Below are positions 20,706 to 29,656 of a stretch of DNA of 64,000 nucleotides, piece by piece. How positions within the stretch are numbered: the first letter of the stretch is position 1; each line of letters starts with the position of its first letter. Under the pieces are notes generated by a model. The model did not search any database and was not told the DNA's origin. It saw only the letters and a program-made list of their open reading frames with translations. Source of the stretch: an uncultured Sulfolobales archaeon (lineage in GTDB: Archaea > Thermoproteota > Thermoprotei_A > Sulfolobales > NBVN01); NCBI GenBank assembly GCA_938017505.1, contig CALIKV010000006.1, positions 1-64,000 on the forward strand, in the 5' to 3' direction. The position numbers and the translations under genes are program-made.

Positions 20706-20957
20706 TTAACCACCCTCTGGTGGGTGCATTAAAACCACTTCATCCAGATCATTTAGGCAGGTTCCCAGGCCCCCTATGTAGTCGGCGTGCCTTCCATTAA
20801 CCAATATTATCGTGTTCCTGCTGAGATCTATCTTAAGACCAATCGCCTCTAGATGCTCTACCAGATCCTTCAAGGTTGAACCATCTCTCATATGTACCCA
20901 GAGATCATTTACGCCCTCCGGGCGTTCCTCAAGTAGTATCTTAACTAGGACCTTCAT
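20706..20957 (-). CDS. MoaD/ThiS-type sulfur-carrier protein
   Basis: Beta-grasp (ubiquitin-like) protein of 83 residues ending in the required Gly-Gly (HPPEGG), where E1-like enzymes adenylate the C-terminus for sulfur transfer. IILVNGRHADYIGG and the DLDEVVLMHPP segment before the tail match MoaD. It overlaps the end of the tungsten-type AOR gene by four bases, so it is translationally coupled. This fits a role in making the tungstopterin cofactor for that enzyme. Confidence 0.88.
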   Translation of the reverse strand: MKVLVKILLEERPEGVNDLWVHMRDGSTLKDLVEHLEAIGLKIDLSRNTIILVNGRHADYIGGLGTCLNDLDEVVLMHPPEGG

Positions 20958-22807
20958 TTGACATCAATCCTAGTGCTAGCTGGCTTAACCTCGCTTAAGC
21001 CAAGTTCGTTGAGCTTTCCTCTTGTCGGCATCCCCCTCTCGTCCCACCCTCTAGCCCTATAGTAATCCTTCAGGAGGATCTCCTCCTCGAAGACCTGTCC
21101 TTTTGATGGGAACCTCGGGACCGGCTCCTTAACAATCCTTAACGGTGCTTTGTCATACTTGCCGTCGATACCTTCACGAGCGTTTATGAGTCTCTCCAGG
21201 TTAAATATTCTCTCACCGACAAGTAGTAGATACTTAACATCATTAAACTCCCTAATACCCGTCGCGGCGTAGAGCATTCTACTGTATAACTCCTCGTCCA
21301 TCATCCATCGATTCCACGGAAGCGTGCAGAAAACTCCTGTCTCGATCAACGCTACTCTGTCCTGGACGTACTTAGTTATCTCCGCCTTACCTTCAACGCT
21401 TAAGGGATCCATTTTCTGCGGTATCCCGGCAATCTCATATGAATTCCAACCCATTGTGTGGCTAGCTCCTATAGGTGACGTCACTAAGTTTAAGCCGTTA
21501 GCCTTAGCTGACCGGGGGTCGTACGCAGGGAGTTCCAGACCTTTAACGTGCATAGCGAACCTCTCAGCACCTCTCCCTAAGGCCTCAGCGGCTCTCTTAA
21601 CCCCCTCGGCAAGTATGTCTCCAATACCTTCCCTCAACGCTATCTTCCTAACGAGATTCACCATAGGTTCGGGGTCTCCCCACCTTAAATCAAGACCTCC
21701 GATCTCCTTCCTGCCTATGATCCCCTTCTCATAGAGCTCGTAGACTAGTCCTATAACAACACCCGTCGATATGGTGTCTAATCCGTACTTGTCGCACAGC
21801 ATGTTGGCCACAGTTATGGCCTCCACATTGGTAATGCCTAGATTGCCGCCGAAAGACCAGTGGGTTTCATACTCTGGAAAGTCCCACACGACTCCAGCGT
21901 AAGGTCCTTCCGTGAGTTTAAACACCTTCCCACATCTTATCATACATCCGTAACACCCGTAGTGCTTCACCATATACTTAGTCAAGTTCTCGATTCTGAA
22001 GGCCTCTATGTTGTCGAGCTCAAGTTGCTTGAAGTTATAGGTAGGGAAATGTCCTAGCGTGTAGAACGGGTAACAGGAGCCATCGGTCCCGAAGGCCTTG
22101 AGCCTCTCGAAAACGGGATTCTTCACGAATCTCTCAACCTGCTCCTTCACAACCTCTCTGAACGCATCCTCGTCGTATATAGTCGGCCTACTGCTTCCCT
22201 TGACCACTATAGCCTTTAGATTCTTAGAACCCATCACAGCACCGCCACCACCCCTAGCGGCAGTTCTCATGTCATCAGTGACTATGGCTGAGATCCTAAC
22301 CAATCTCTCGCCTGCAGGACCTATGACGACCATCTTAGAATCTTTGCTGGTTTCATCTCTTAGGAAGTCTCTGGTCGCGTCAGTTGTCATGCCCCAAACG
22401 ATGTCGGCCTTCCTGAACTCAACGACGTCATTCTCTATGTAGACATAAGTCGGTCTTTCAGCCCTACCCCTCACGACTACAGCGTCGTACCCTGCAAACT
22501 TAAGCTCGGCGCCGAAGAAACCTCCACCAACTGACCTGAAGTACGTGGTGGTGAGCGGTGATTTAAACTGCGCTACCCACCTGTGTGAAGACTGAGCTGA
22601 AGTTCCCGTTAAAGGACCTACGGAGAAGATCAAAACGTTCTCAGGACTTAAAGGATCTACGCCTGGCTTAAGCAGATCCCATAAGAACGAAGCGCCAATG
22701 CCCCTCCCGCCGATGAAGCGCTTGACCAAATCCTCACTAAGAGTCATAGGCGTTGCCTTGCCTTTGGTTAGGTCAAGCTCGAGCACTCTGCCCATATAAC
22801 TAAACAT
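20954..22807 (-). CDS. Tungsten-dependent aldehyde:ferredoxin oxidoreductase (AOR family)
   Basis: Oxidises aldehydes to carboxylic acids with ferredoxin as acceptor; the reverse reaction is possible. The N-terminal pterin-binding domain shows LDLTKGKATPMTL, FIGGRGIGASFLWDLL and PLTGTSAQSSHRWV. AARGGGGAVMGSKNLKAI is a signature. The cluster-binding Cys motif CYGCMIRCGKVF is at about residue 285, with a further Cys near residue 500 (GVFCTLPW). ASHTMGWNSYEI matches the substrate region. At 617 residues the length is normal. The ATG follows GGTGA. It forms an operon with the MoaD-like gene. Aldehyde specificity is not evident. Confidence 0.94.
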   Translation of the reverse strand: MFSYMGRVLELDLTKGKATPMTLSEDLVKRFIGGRGIGASFLWDLLKPGVDPLSPENVLIFSVGPLTGTSAQSSHRWVAQFKSPLTTTYFRSVGGGFFGAELKFAGYDAVVVRGRAERPTYVYIENDVVEFRKADIVWGMTTDATRDFLRDETSKDSKMVVIGPAGERLVRISAIVTDDMRTAARGGGGAVMGSKNLKAIVVKGSSRPTIYDEDAFREVVKEQVERFVKNPVFERLKAFGTDGSCYPFYTLGHFPTYNFKQLELDNIEAFRIENLTKYMVKHYGCYGCMIRCGKVFKLTEGPYAGVVWDFPEYETHWSFGGNLGITNVEAITVANMLCDKYGLDTISTGVVIGLVYELYEKGIIGRKEIGGLDLRWGDPEPMVNLVRKIALREGIGDILAEGVKRAAEALGRGAERFAMHVKGLELPAYDPRSAKANGLNLVTSPIGASHTMGWNSYEIAGIPQKMDPLSVEGKAEITKYVQDRVALIETGVFCTLPWNRWMMDEELYSRMLYAATGIREFNDVKYLLLVGERIFNLERLINAREGIDGKYDKAPLRIVKEPVPRFPSKGQVFEEEILLKDYYRARGWDERGMPTRGKLNELGLSEVKPASTRIDVK

Positions 22808-26091: not shown

Positions 26092-26853
26092 TTGACTGCG
26101 TGGAGGCTGCCCTTATGGATTGGAGCATGTACAGCAATTTTTAGTGAGGAGGTGGTGAAATTGTCCTTTTCTCTGTTCTGGAGGGTTAGGATAGAGAAGT
26201 TGGTGGTAGGAAGGACAGACCAGTGTGTGAAAGCGCGTTTCACTGTTGACGTTGAGACTAAGGAGCTTAGCGATGGAAATGACCACAGGCGATGTTCGCG
26301 AGTCCAAAAGCATTGCTGGCATTAATCGATGATGCCTTTAAGCATGAGAGAATTAGCGAAGCACTCATACATGAAGCGTTTGACTTAGCCAAGATCTATA
26401 GGCTTCCAGGAGAATTGGTGTGAAAACATATCAAGCCTAGGCGTGACACTAGAACCAATAGAGGTCCTCGGAAGGAAAGGACGTAGAACAGTCAGGCTTA
26501 TCAGAAGGCTAGGCGAGGAAGGTGGACTACGGTATGAGGTAGACTGCCGAAACAGCATTATCAACCTTCATAACGCCAGTACGGAGAACCTATATGACTA
26601 AAACACGAACAATAGCATAAAGAGGGAACTAGTGACTAAAGCATACGCATACGACATGCTAATAAACCTAAAGGCAATATCTAAAAGAGACCATATAATC
26701 GGAGAAGAGCTGTGGCAAACTAATTTGGAGAAAGTCCATAATCAGAAGACCTGTTAAATAAAACTTACATCTTCTGCTCTGAGGAATGCGCGAAGAAGAG
26801 GTTTCAGGGTTGGCTACGTCGACAAACACTAAATAATTCCATATTCTACAAAA
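26092..26853 (+). pseudogene. Decayed gene with TRASH-like metal-binding C-terminus, multiple frameshifts
   Basis: Protein-like segments follow one another in order but in different frames. First is RVRIEKLVVGRTDQCVKARF (frame of 26155). Next is FASPKALLALIDDAFKHERI (from 26292), then NISSLGVTLEPIEVLGRKGR (to about 26600). After that, GEELWQTNLEKVHNQKT (frame of GTG 26632) leads into YIFCSEECAKKRFQGWLRR (frame of 26763). Joined, they give one basic protein of about 200 residues ending in a FCSEECAKKRF zinc-finger like the TRASH/YHS group. At least three frameshifts and two in-frame stops interrupt it, so it is almost certainly inactive. The original role is unknown; a metal sensor or handler is plausible. 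Confidence 0.5.
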
Positions 26854-26916
26854 ATCCATAAATGAAAATTGAGCGTTTTAGAGAAAATAGTGTTTAGTAA
26901 CTTAGCGAGAAGATAC

Positions 26917-26928
26917 GTTTATATAACT
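26917..26928 (+). promoter_or_regulatory. Probable TATA box for the sulfur-transfer operon
   Basis: GTTTATATAACT lies about 30-40 bases before ATG 26957, and GGTGATGTG precedes the start. It is the only clear promoter before the four-gene operon. Confidence 0.5.
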
Positions 26929-26956
26929 CTGTTATAAAATTATACTTGGTGATGTG

Positions 26957-27367
26957 ATGTCAAAAATATCTATAATAGTGGCCTCAGAAAAACTGGATAA
27001 GCTACTTCCAGCGGCGACGCTGGCTACGACAGCGGCCGTCATGGGTTGGGAGTCAGAGATGTTCTTTACATTTTGGGGGCTCTTAGCCCTAAAAAGGGAT
27101 TATGAGCCAAAGGAAGTTAGCTCGGATTATAAAGTTTATGAAGACTATTTAAGAAGGGCTGTTAGCTCTGGAGCTATGCCGAGCTGGCTAGAAATATTAG
27201 AGCAGGGAAAGAAGACTGGAAGGTTGAAGGTTTATGCTTGCTCTGCAACGATGAGTTTTCTCGGTGTGAAGACTGAAGACTTGGTAGAATACGTTGATGG
27301 GGTTGTTGGCGCTGCATCCTTTTTAAGTAAAGCGAAGGATTCAGATATTAATCTATTCATATCCTAG
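26957..27367 (+). CDS. DsrE/DsrF/DrsH-like family protein (putative sulfurtransferase)
   Basis: Small protein of the DsrE-like (COG2210, peroxiredoxin-like) group, members of which carry persulfide on a conserved Cys. Seen: an N-terminal KISIIVASEKLDKLLPA, MGWESEMFFTFWGLLAL typical of DsrE3-type proteins, and the single central Cys in LKVYACSATMSFLGV (about residue 95), followed by EDLVEYVDGVVGAASF. No membrane helix is strong enough to call. First gene of a four-gene operon with TusA-, IscS- and IscU-like proteins, so it probably accepts sulfur from TusA or donates to it. Codon use is A/T-rich unlike flanking genes. Confidence 0.82.
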   Translation: MSKISIIVASEKLDKLLPAATLATTAAVMGWESEMFFTFWGLLALKRDYEPKEVSSDYKVYEDYLRRAVSSGAMPSWLEILEQGKKTGRLKVYACSATMSFLGVKTEDLVEYVDGVVGAASFLSKAKDSDINLFIS

Positions 27368-27383
27368 TACAGGTGGTAGCTTT

Positions 27384-27614
27384 ATGAAAGTCGATATAGT
27401 TGTGGATGCGCGATATAAGTCTTGTCCAGGTCCACTTTTAGCATTAGCTGAAGCAGTTATGAAGGCCAGTCCAGGTCAGATAATTATGCTCCTGGCAACT
27501 GATCCAGGCGCTCCTCGGGATATTAGGGAGTGGGCTTTAAATGTAGGTCATAAGGTTCTGAATATTGAAAAGGCGGATGAAACATACCAAATATATTTGG
27601 AGGTTTCAAGTTGA
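27384..27614 (+). CDS. TusA/SirA-family sulfur carrier
   Basis: 76-residue sulfur-relay protein. The conserved N-terminal motif VDARYKSCPGPLLALAEA contains the persulfide Cys in CPGP (CPxP), followed by the family segment ASPGQIIMLLATDPGAPRDI. It starts 16 bases after the DsrE-like gene, with AGGTGG upstream, and overlaps the IscS-like gene by four bases. This makes tight translational coupling of carrier and cysteine desulfurase likely. In bacteria TusA accepts sulfur directly from IscS, which fits the arrangement. Confidence 0.9.
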   Translation: MKVDIVVDARYKSCPGPLLALAEAVMKASPGQIIMLLATDPGAPRDIREWALNVGHKVLNIEKADETYQIYLEVSS

Positions 27615-28852
27615 CCTATAGTGACCTATCAAAGCCGATAGATGAGTTAATCAAGTCGCATGGTCTACCAGAGAGAGAAGTTTATTTAGATCACGAGAAC
27701 TCCGGCTTAATAATCCCGGAAGCCCTAAGAGCTATAGATGACGCCTATAGGTTAAGTGGTAAAGGACATCCATCTATAACTCATTTGATGGGCTGGATAA
27801 GCTATCAGGCTCTTTATGAAGCCACTGTAAATATCGCTTTGGCGATCAATTGTAGCCCAGAAGAAATAGTTTACACCCATAGTGGGACTGAAGCGAATAA
27901 CTTAGCCATAATGGGCTCGTCCGAGCTCTCATCAAAGAGAAAGAAGATTATAGTGTCAAGTATAGAGCATTTAAGTGTGATTTTTCCGGCTGAGAGACTT
28001 GAAAAACACGGGTTCAAGGTTATAAAGGTACCTGTTGATGGAGAGGGCTTCGTAAACTTGGATTTCTTATCCGAGCATGTTGACAAGGAGACCTTAATAG
28101 TAAGCGTGGCAGCTGTAAACCATGAGATAGGCACTATACAAGACATAAAAGCCATAAGGGACATTGTCAGAGATAAAGACGAAGGAATTCTGATTCACAC
28201 AGATGCCTGCGATGCCCTTGGAAGAATTCCGCTGGACATGAAGAAACTTGACGTTGATTTGGCATCCTTTAGCAGTCATAAAGTGTATGGACCTAAAGGC
28301 GCAGGTGCACTATATGTTAGAGAGGGAATTAAACTTGAACCAATCGTCCATGGACAACTTAGCACACAAAAGCTCTGGCCGGGCATTGAGAACATACCCA
28401 GCATAATCGGCTTCTCCAAGGCTGTTGAGATCATGCACAGAAATTTTAAAGAGAACGTGTTAAAGATGACTGGTCTTAGAGAACGCTTGATTAATGGCAT
28501 TTTAAACAGTATTGATCATACTTTATTAAACGGTCCTTTTGGCCATAAACGCGCTCCGGACAACGTGAATGTTAGCTTCCTTTATTGCGAGGGAGAGGCT
28601 TTAACAGTTGAGTTAAGTACGAAAGGCATTTACGTCTCTAGTGGAAGCGCCTGCACAAGTCGCGTCTTAGAGCCTAGCCATGTGCTCTTAGCTATTGGGC
28701 GAAAATATGAGGAGGCGCATGGAAGTTTGCTGATGAAGGTCTCACCGTTTCATACAACATTAGACGTAGAGTATGTTTTAGACGCTTTGCCTGGCGCTGT
28801 TAGAAGAATTAGATCGTTAAGTCCGATTAAACCCCCGAGGAAGGTGATATAA
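27611..28852 (+). CDS. Cysteine desulfurase (NifS/IscS family)
   Basis: PLP enzyme that takes sulfur from cysteine and forms a persulfide for Fe-S assembly or sulfur relay. VYTHSGTEANNLAI (PLP phosphate), SSIEHLSV (His stacking on PLP), IHTDACDALGRIPLD (Asp) and SFSSHKVYGPKGAGALYV (Lys Schiff base) are all present. The active-site loop is SSGSACTSRVLEPSHVL with the catalytic Cys, in the long loop of group I IscS-type enzymes. The usual N-terminal YLDNAATT is replaced by VYLDHENSGL. Start TTG, overlapping tusA. Two bases separate it from the IscU-like gene. Confidence 0.92.
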   Translation: MTYSDLSKPIDELIKSHGLPEREVYLDHENSGLIIPEALRAIDDAYRLSGKGHPSITHLMGWISYQALYEATVNIALAINCSPEEIVYTHSGTEANNLAIMGSSELSSKRKKIIVSSIEHLSVIFPAERLEKHGFKVIKVPVDGEGFVNLDFLSEHVDKETLIVSVAAVNHEIGTIQDIKAIRDIVRDKDEGILIHTDACDALGRIPLDMKKLDVDLASFSSHKVYGPKGAGALYVREGIKLEPIVHGQLSTQKLWPGIENIPSIIGFSKAVEIMHRNFKENVLKMTGLRERLINGILNSIDHTLLNGPFGHKRAPDNVNVSFLYCEGEALTVELSTKGIYVSSGSACTSRVLEPSHVLLAIGRKYEEAHGSLLMKVSPFHTTLDVEYVLDALPGAVRRIRSLSPIKPPRKVI

Positions 28853-28854
28853 AT

Positions 28855-29355
28855 TTGTCGAGCCGAGTTCCTCTAACATACGGAAAGAAGGTTCTTGAGC
28901 TATTTAGAAATCCGAAGAACCTTGGCAGAATGGAGGATGCTAACGCCGAAGCGCTTGCTGGCAGCCTAGCATGCGGAGACATGATAGCAATATACTTGAA
29001 AATTAATGAATTGACTGAAAAAATTGTTGATGCGAAGTTTGAAAGTTATGGCTGCGCTGCAAATATAGCCGCGGCAAGCATACTAACTGAAATGATCAAG
29101 GGGAAAAACCTGCAAGATGCTTGGAAGATTTCATGGAGAGACGTGTCCAATGAGCTTGGCGGACTACCACCAGTTAAATATCATTGTGGCGTGCTTGCAG
29201 TCGGATCGCTTAGGAGAGCTATAAGAGCCTACTACGCAAATAGATCTAAGCCAGATTGGCTTCCTGAGGAGTTCACACAAGAAGAAAAACATGCTCTGGA
29301 GGAAGAAAAGCTAATGGAGACCCTTGCCAAAAGAGCACAAAGAACGGCGCTTTAA
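28855..29355 (+). CDS. IscU/NifU-N-type Fe-S cluster scaffold
   Basis: Scaffold on which [2Fe-2S] clusters are built with the cysteine desulfurase next door. The three cluster Cys are in SLACGDMIAIYLKI (with the conserved Asp), SYGCAANIAAAS and VKYHCGVLA. ELGGLPPVKYHC carries the LPPVK motif that binds HscA in bacteria, although no HscA/HscB gene is nearby. About 35 extra acidic, helical residues follow the family domain (SKPDWLPEEFTQEEKHALEEE). TTG start two bases after the IscS-like stop. ISC-type systems are unusual in archaea, which mostly use SUF. Confidence 0.88.
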   Translation: MSSRVPLTYGKKVLELFRNPKNLGRMEDANAEALAGSLACGDMIAIYLKINELTEKIVDAKFESYGCAANIAAASILTEMIKGKNLQDAWKISWRDVSNELGGLPPVKYHCGVLAVGSLRRAIRAYYANRSKPDWLPEEFTQEEKHALEEEKLMETLAKRAQRTAL

Positions 29356-29375
29356 CGAGCTGAAACATCGATCAG

Positions 29376-29516
29376 TTAGCAACCATGTTTGCATAGTTCA
29401 TGTCTTTCACAAACCTTCATAAGCTTTAGCATCTCAAGTGTGGTCAATGAAAATGTGTCTTTGAATCTAGAAGTTTTCATCGTCTTAACTGGCCATAGAG
29501 TGGAACTTTTCAACAT
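29376..29516 (-). CDS. Possible 46-residue Cys-rich small protein or gene remnant
   Basis: ATG at 29516 opens a 46-codon frame ending CERHELCKHGC. The Lys/Met/Leu-rich helix before it looks protein-like, but I know no family and see no clear ribosome site. The 301-base gap containing it is strongly A+T-rich and otherwise empty. It could be the tail of a gene lost with the acquired segment, or chance. Confidence 0.22.
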   Translation of the reverse strand: MLKSSTLWPVKTMKTSRFKDTFSLTTLEMLKLMKVCERHELCKHGC

Positions 29517-29656
29517 TTAAGAAAACAGGAAAGGACTTTTTCAATCTTACTTTCTAACTCATGTCCTTCTCCAAATAGTATTTTCGCAAAAGAATTGAAT
29601 GCTCTATCTTAAATTTTCCTCCCGCTACAGAATTAATTTGAGAATAAAGAGTGGTT

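Follow-up and report, generated by a model that had tools for sequence, protein, structure and literature searches.

A horizontally exchanged DsrE–TusA–IscS–IscU cassette in archaea and its predicted palindromic operator

Four closely packed genes at positions 26957–29355 of the DNA analysed here (a stretch of 64 kb, hereafter the window, at the start of a 179-kb contig from a Sulfolobales archaeon) encode a DsrE-like protein, a TusA-like carrier, a cysteine desulfurase and an IscU-like scaffold. The locus raises the question of whether these genes form a genuine unit, how such a unit came to be in this genome, how it is controlled and where the sulfur handled by its products would go. A preliminary description had read the set as a dedicated path leading from cysteine to IscS and from there either to IscU or to TusA and DsrE.

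Composition of the cassette and its place among known systems

All four genes lie on the forward strand. The first (26957..27367, ATG start) encodes a putative DsrE2-like persulfide carrier of 136 aa and is followed, after a 16-base gap, by the gene of a TusA-like sulfur carrier of 76 aa (27384..27614). The latter overlaps by 4 bases the gene of an IscS/MisS-type cysteine desulfurase of 413 aa (27611..28852, TTG start), and a 2-base gap separates this from the gene of an IscU/MisU-type scaffold of 166 aa (28855..29355, TTG start). The genes, their spacing and the catalytic cysteines, as previously described, were confirmed by open reading frames, Pfam matches and residue alignments. Pfam scores are all well over cut-off: 92 bits for DrsE_2 (PF13686; cut-off 25), 71 for TusA (PF01206; cut-off 28.6), 203 for Aminotran_5 (PF00266) and 139 for NifU_N (PF01592); IscS also scores 371 bits with TIGR03402. 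Cut-offs of the more specific models were not reached, be it by IscS (305 of 643) or IscU (107 of 192) with the bacterial ISC equivalogs of NCBIfam, by DsrE with the DsrE2 equivalog NF047629 (57 of 210), which leaves it a member of Pfam DrsE_2 only, by TusA with the E. coli-type equivalog or by IscU with the model of the zinc sulfurtransferase SufU (TIGR01994; 59 of 92.5). Given low equivalog and high Pfam scores, the cassette proteins belong to these superfamilies and stand outside the bacterial ISC or Dsr equivalogs.

The residues on which function would depend are in place. The DsrE-like protein has a single Cys, within YACSATM, and this Cys and the Thr three positions after it are conserved in all or nearly all rows of the DsrE alignment. 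TusA has the CPxP motif in the form CPGP. IscS has the complete catalytic set (His120, Asp198, Lys224 and Cys348, equivalent to E. coli H104, D180, K206 and C328), and IscU has the complete ligand set (C40, D42, C67, H110 and C111, of which His110 is of the IscU type) together with an LPPVK motif. In aligned rows from 18 cassettes, all 18 retain the catalytic residues and all 18 have CPGP. The closest solved structures are those of Archaeoglobus fulgidus IscS-IscU (4r5f and 4eb5 for IscS, 4eb5 chain C for IscU) and 2qs7 for DsrE.

An adjacent IscS-type desulfurase and IscU-type scaffold, with the His, Lys and Cys of the former and the C, D, C, H, C of the latter, correspond to the published MIS system (MisS-MisU; IscSU2 of Methanosarcina acetivorans), which likewise pairs a type I cysteine desulfurase with an IscU-like scaffold in a cluster lacking HscA, HscB and ferredoxin (PMC7585200, PMC12442378). 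None of these three genes was found beside the cassette among the neighbouring genes in the window, in agreement with the earlier view that this is not a transplanted bacterial isc operon. The preliminary description was mistaken, however, in regarding an IscS-IscU pair as unusual in archaea: NifU_N (IscU) occurs in 201 of 349 Thermoproteota genomes, many archaeal genomes encode an iscSU pair (PMC7585200) and the pair itself is MIS (PMC12442378). What is unusual is the four-gene unit. Whereas the published MIS clusters have iscSU alone or with other neighbours, DsrE and TusA are here fixed in the operon, the operator is a conserved palindrome and horizontal transfer is repeated. A literature search found no paper joining TusA, DsrE, IscS, IscU and archaea.

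Variant desulfurases and scaffolds were seen alongside. In a whole clade of TusA- or DsrE-linked IscS from Bathyarchaeia-type loci (L008–L029 and others; 30 rows) the PLP-binding lysine is replaced by Asp, as in chain A of A. fulgidus 4eb5, so these proteins cannot be ordinary desulfurases; the window IscS has Lys224 at this position. Elsewhere (L049, L054, L058, L060–L062, L066, L068, L070, L073, L076, L078 and L097) Pro stands for the catalytic His104, and at several of these loci a gene for a SufS-type desulfurase adjoins the same IscU, which suggests that sulfur there no longer comes from the IscS-like partner. An intein-like insert is present in the IscU of L096 (5952–7517) and L095 (1024–2592), giving a 521-aa frame; intein models match residues 121–415 in L096.

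The host genome (1.46 Mb, 82% complete) was assessed family by family. One IscU and one TusA were found, both within the cassette. The genome is not SUF-free, a point on which the preliminary description had wanted a check: a SufB-like protein is encoded directly next to a SufC-like ATPase (SmsC-SmsB), and a SufS exceeding the TIGR01979 cut-off lies ~41 kb from the cassette. At 20706–22807 of the window, a gene for a MoaD-like protein directly adjoins one for an aldehyde ferredoxin oxidoreductase; sulfur from TusA/IscS might be used there for the tungsten cofactor.

Distribution and joint transfer of the four genes

A gene-neighbourhood search returned the order DsrE–TusA–IscS–IscU from other archaeal genomes, at loci L048, L050, L056, L057, L059, L064, L074, L081, L082, L083, L221 and L225 and in the named records L100, L104, L108, L109 and L111. 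Recurrence in at least 15 other genomes is far beyond chance, and the cassette anticipated in the preliminary description is real. Its carriers (at least 15 genomes) span different families and classes, including a methanogen; among them are bins of Bathyarchaeota (L100), Nezhaarchaeota (L105, identical with L083) and Methanomethyliaceae (L106, identical with L225), as well as Ignisphaera (L107, identical with L048) and Methanolinea (L111). A DsrE of cassette grade (above ~225 bits) is encoded by 15 of 398 genomes and was absent from the same-genus genome G357 (99% complete) and from the same-family genomes G250 and G377. All matches of this grade are archaeal and one weaker DsrE-TusA match is labelled bacterial; a bacterial origin of the cassette was thus unsupported. 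In the isolate Methanogenium cariaci JCM 10550 (L112, 6658–7907) the cassette IscS is split over several frames, reflecting either decay or draft sequence error.

At the DNA level, similarity extends over the promoter, the four genes and ~170 bp downstream (26710..29525, forward strand), where identity is 90.4% with L057 (2745 bp aligned), 89.2% with the Bathyarchaeota bin L100 (2851 bp) and 85% with L048. Outside 26710–29525 no homology to those loci was found, apart from an element remnant. Judged by these alignments, the transferred unit is ~2.8 kb long. The four proteins also diverged together. Their identity matrices correlate among themselves (r = 0.79–0.95, Mantel P ≤ 0.0006; 10 genomes), the corresponding values for LeuRS being −0.14 to 0.01, and in 13 genomes the correlations were 0.75–0.94 among the four proteins and 0.12–0.29 (weak) with RpoB. 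Between the window genome and G051, the genome of L057 and a member of a distant group, identity is 92% for IscS but 40 and 55% for LeuRS and RpoB; the congener G357, by contrast, has an RpoB 88% identical to that of the window genome, yet carries a different TusA-IscS-IscU. In an IscS tree of 85 rows, the rows from cassettes group together (2 label changes, as against 16.7 after shuffling), and a separate clade outside this group contains the native IscS of the window's genus, family and order. Vertical descent of each gene within ordinary archaeal clades, which the preliminary description had set down as the finding that would undo the cassette interpretation, is the opposite of what this phylogeny gave. 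The comparisons indicate that the cassette is inherited horizontally, as a block, between distantly related heat-loving archaea.

Base composition also sets the cassette genes apart: their GC3 is 0.31–0.43, versus 0.50–0.69 for the other 25 window genes tested. In a metagenome-assembled genome of 46 contigs with 1.8% contamination, this difference could also be had if the cassette contig were a contaminant introduced by binning or assembly. However, the cassette sits inside the 179-kb contig, genes on both of its flanks match the congener G357 at 71–73% DNA identity, and LeuRS from the same contig is 67% identical to that of a same-family genome as against 40% to that of the cassette's closest carrier. 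The matches of the flanking genes to the congener and of LeuRS to the family make an artefact extremely improbable.

A decayed remnant of an insertion element (26430..26711) abuts the left edge of the transferred segment. Over 300 bp it shares 74% identity with part of an element that sits just downstream of the cassette in G051 (L057, 5135–5757) and combines a DDE_Tnp_1 fragment with perfect terminal inverted repeats of 16 nt. Insertion of an element beside the cassette is observed, whereas transport of the cassette by such an element is a guess. Terminal inverted repeats of the segment itself (26723–26747 and 29552–29576, 72%) were no better than a chance match, and synteny with the congener was too scattered for an empty site to be defined. 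The cassette might also have replaced a catalytically dead native desulfurase, an idea raised by the many archaeal IscS without the PLP Lys or without His104, but the congener has an intact IscS and the idea was dropped.

Operator palindrome and candidate regulator

The cassette promoter has a TATA-box-like TTTATATAA (26918..26926, forward strand), conserved in most cassette copies, and a predicted palindromic operator, TATAACTCTGTTATA (26922..26936), overlaps it. An upstream alignment shows that in most cassettes a palindrome TATAAC-N3-GTTATA overlaps the TATA box, with conserved arms and a variable spacer; paired changes in the arms occur in L082 (TTTAAC/GTTAAA) and L048 (TAAT/ATTA). Counts of bacterial sigma-70 promoters and terminators were near the shuffled expectation. 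With at most 1 mismatch, the palindrome stands in front of 11 of the 15 cassettes and, among 58 further IscSU operons (a group counted by hand), in front of 11, compared with 16 of 852 control genes; the corresponding Fisher P-values of 3e-15 and 2e-7 are optimistic, related genomes not being independent. Over 20 genomes, 40 sites were found versus 9 for a reversed control pattern.

Elsewhere, the palindrome lies upstream of genes for E1/ThiF (L257), PALP/cysteine synthases (L258, L259 and L040), TauE and NIR_SIR (L260), Cons_hypoth698 transporters (L258 and L267), a MOT1/sulfate-type transporter (L270), FTR1 (L269) and Nfu (L264 and L265). It is also found upstream of hemerythrins (L273–L275) and copper-type ATPases (L272 and L274), which fit sulfur assimilation less well. 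Two overlapping tandem palindromes precede Cons_hypoth698 (a putative sulfate exporter family) in two distantly related genomes (L258, 4119–4146; L267, 3481–3508).

On correlative evidence, the candidate regulators are small proteins (~110 residues) of a single family, which combine an HTH_3 domain with a Cys at the N-terminal end and an invariant CxxC at the C-terminal end. Genes of this family neighbour IscSU in ~14 loci, and the palindrome stands in front of 5 of 19 of them with at most 1 mismatch (controls, 16 of 852) and of 8 of 19 with at most 2 (controls, 29 of 852). Among 15 cassette genomes, an exact operator is present in 10 of the 11 that have the family and in none of the 4 that do not (G333, an Ignisphaera that is among the closest order-level relatives of the window genome, G121, G103 and G076), with Fisher P = 0.004, or 0.02 at one genome per family. 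Palindrome sites numbered 35 versus 4 for the control in those eleven genomes, and 1 versus 2 in the other four. Because the family is widespread (319 of 349 genomes), the link between regulator and operator depends on a subset. One member is encoded in the host (C7:46633–46935; L282, 4034–4393) and another in G009 (L050, 6696–7022), and several Sulfolobales-type regulators have no clear operator upstream. Since the 1.46-Mb host genome contains no exact match besides the window palindrome, regulation in the host may be vestigial or may concern the cassette alone.

The Thermococcales have SurR, an archaeal regulator of sulfur metabolism that recognizes a short palindrome with the motif GTTn3AAC. 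By contrast, the aligned copies of the cassette operator read AACn3GTT, and the candidate regulator belongs to a different HTH family; a search of the literature on SurR and SufR found no corresponding motif or paper.

There seems, from these counts, to be a control system of archaea, not described before, that governs sulfur and Fe-S metabolism and has the palindrome as its switch. We put forward tentatively that the CxxC HTH protein could be the archaeal counterpart of IscR/SufR, reading AAC-N3-GTT before its own gene, before IscS-IscU operons and before sulfur-assimilation genes, and that the cassette would carry its operator from one archaeon to another and so come under control in any host that has the regulator. 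We infer that the protein probably senses Fe-S, iron or sulfur status through its Cys residues and would co-regulate sulfur-assimilation and Fe-S genes in other archaea; the direction of control is inferred likewise.

Possible routes of sulfur through the cassette

Most likely, the cassette is a MIS that is both mobile and regulated and in which TusA and DsrE form a persulfide branch serving sulfur assimilation. IscS would move sulfur from cysteine to its loop Cys, and IscU would take this sulfur for Fe-S cluster building. TusA, through its Cys14, would compete for the same IscS persulfide, and from TusA the sulfur would move to Cys95 of the DsrE2-like protein. The acceptors beyond are probably steps of biosynthetic thiolation, with thiocarboxylate (E1/MoaD) or otherwise, and transcription would be controlled at the promoter-overlapping palindrome. 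In E. coli, tusA lies outside the isc operon and TusBCD fills the role of DsrE. The E. coli IscS is nevertheless a comparable hub, one desulfurase for which IscU and TusA compete (PMC11302665, PMC2854127), and this makes a TusA/IscU branch plausible here by analogy. The path from cysteine to IscS and its branch point, as first described, fits both that biochemistry and the intact catalytic residues. We regard the explanation as a whole, i.e. a horizontally exchanged, self-contained operon of MIS type with a persulfide branch under palindrome control, as rather probable.

Possible acceptors are suggested by the neighbours of other cassettes. Genes for E1/ThiF, SAMP/MoaD, a threonine synthase-like (ThrC-like) protein, homoserine dehydrogenase and siroheme reductase (NIR/SIR) adjoin several of them, most completely in L057 and L100 and in part in L056 and L064; E1 alone adjoins the L104 cassette and L051, which lacks DsrE. 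Clusters of the threonine synthase-like, MoaD/SAMP, homoserine dehydrogenase (not in L064) and ThiF/E1 genes extend over L057 8673–12300, L100 1–5594, L056 9542–12299 and L064 2067–4715, with siroheme reductase and a second TusA beside the cluster in L100. These clusters possibly represent a protein-thiocarboxylate route to homocysteine, and a route of this kind to sulfur amino acids or cofactors would fit. No acceptor gene was found beside the window cassette; the long E1 seen near other cassettes was not found in the 82% complete host genome, which has only a short E1 of the MoeB type.

Fe-S assembly through IscS-IscU could instead be the sole function of a plain MIS operon, with TusA and DsrE as incidental passengers or storage proteins. 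The cassette IscU is indeed the only IscU in several cassette genomes, many IscSU pairs of nearby clades have neither DsrE nor TusA, and the palindrome is shared with Nfu and FTR1. Yet the four genes, including the small TusA and DsrE with their invariant Cys, co-diverge and transfer together, and TusA or DsrE also adjoins unrelated IscSU versions in Bathyarchaeia; we consider this alternative unlikely. Sulfur might also flow inwards, DsrE and TusA bringing sulfane sulfur (polysulfide or thiosulfate) to IscS-IscU so that clusters would be built from inorganic sulfur and not from cysteine. Related archaeal IscS often lack the PLP lysine, as in the 30 rows above, and use of non-cysteine sulfur probably exists among kin. 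The cassette IscS, however, keeps every desulfurase residue and its operator-linked genes are assimilatory (cysteine synthase, sulfite reductase and sulfite exporter), making inward flow improbable.

The last alternative is dissimilatory sulfur oxidation of the sHdr/Dsr type by the DsrE-TusA pair, with IscSU adjoining by accident. DsrE2-TusA pairs are typical of tusA-dsrE-hdr clusters, as in Metallosphaera cuprina, where DsrE3A/DsrE2B-TusA likewise place a protein of the DsrE2-like family next to TusA and act as thiosulfate/sulfane carriers (PMC4175335), and Sulfolobaceae DsrE are ~41–43% identical. The M. cuprina pair is, however, linked to hdr genes, whereas the partners of the cassette pair are a desulfurase and a scaffold. 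In the cassette neighbourhoods examined, where the neighbours were partly family-scanned, genes for Hdr, Dsr or lipoate-binding proteins were not found, and methanogens also have the cassette. The operator is that of assimilatory genes, a company that argues against oxidation, which we rate as very improbable. Of the readings considered, the MIS operon with a persulfide branch thus remains the one we prefer.

The cassette is real, conserved and horizontally exchanged, and it is as a variant of MIS with DsrE and TusA that it is new; operator, regulon and transfer are additions to what had been described. The archaeal sulfur/Fe-S regulon with its candidate regulator would be the larger novelty, supported by several counts though not proven. 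The cassette system is close to the proposed ancestor of ISC. Although the minimal ISC is often seen as an ancient system passed on vertically, archaea of different classes can gain or swap it as a regulated block with dedicated sulfur carriers. For the study of how archaea regulate Fe-S cluster and sulfur supply, the finding offers a defined operon with its 15-base operator and, as the regulator, a single candidate family.
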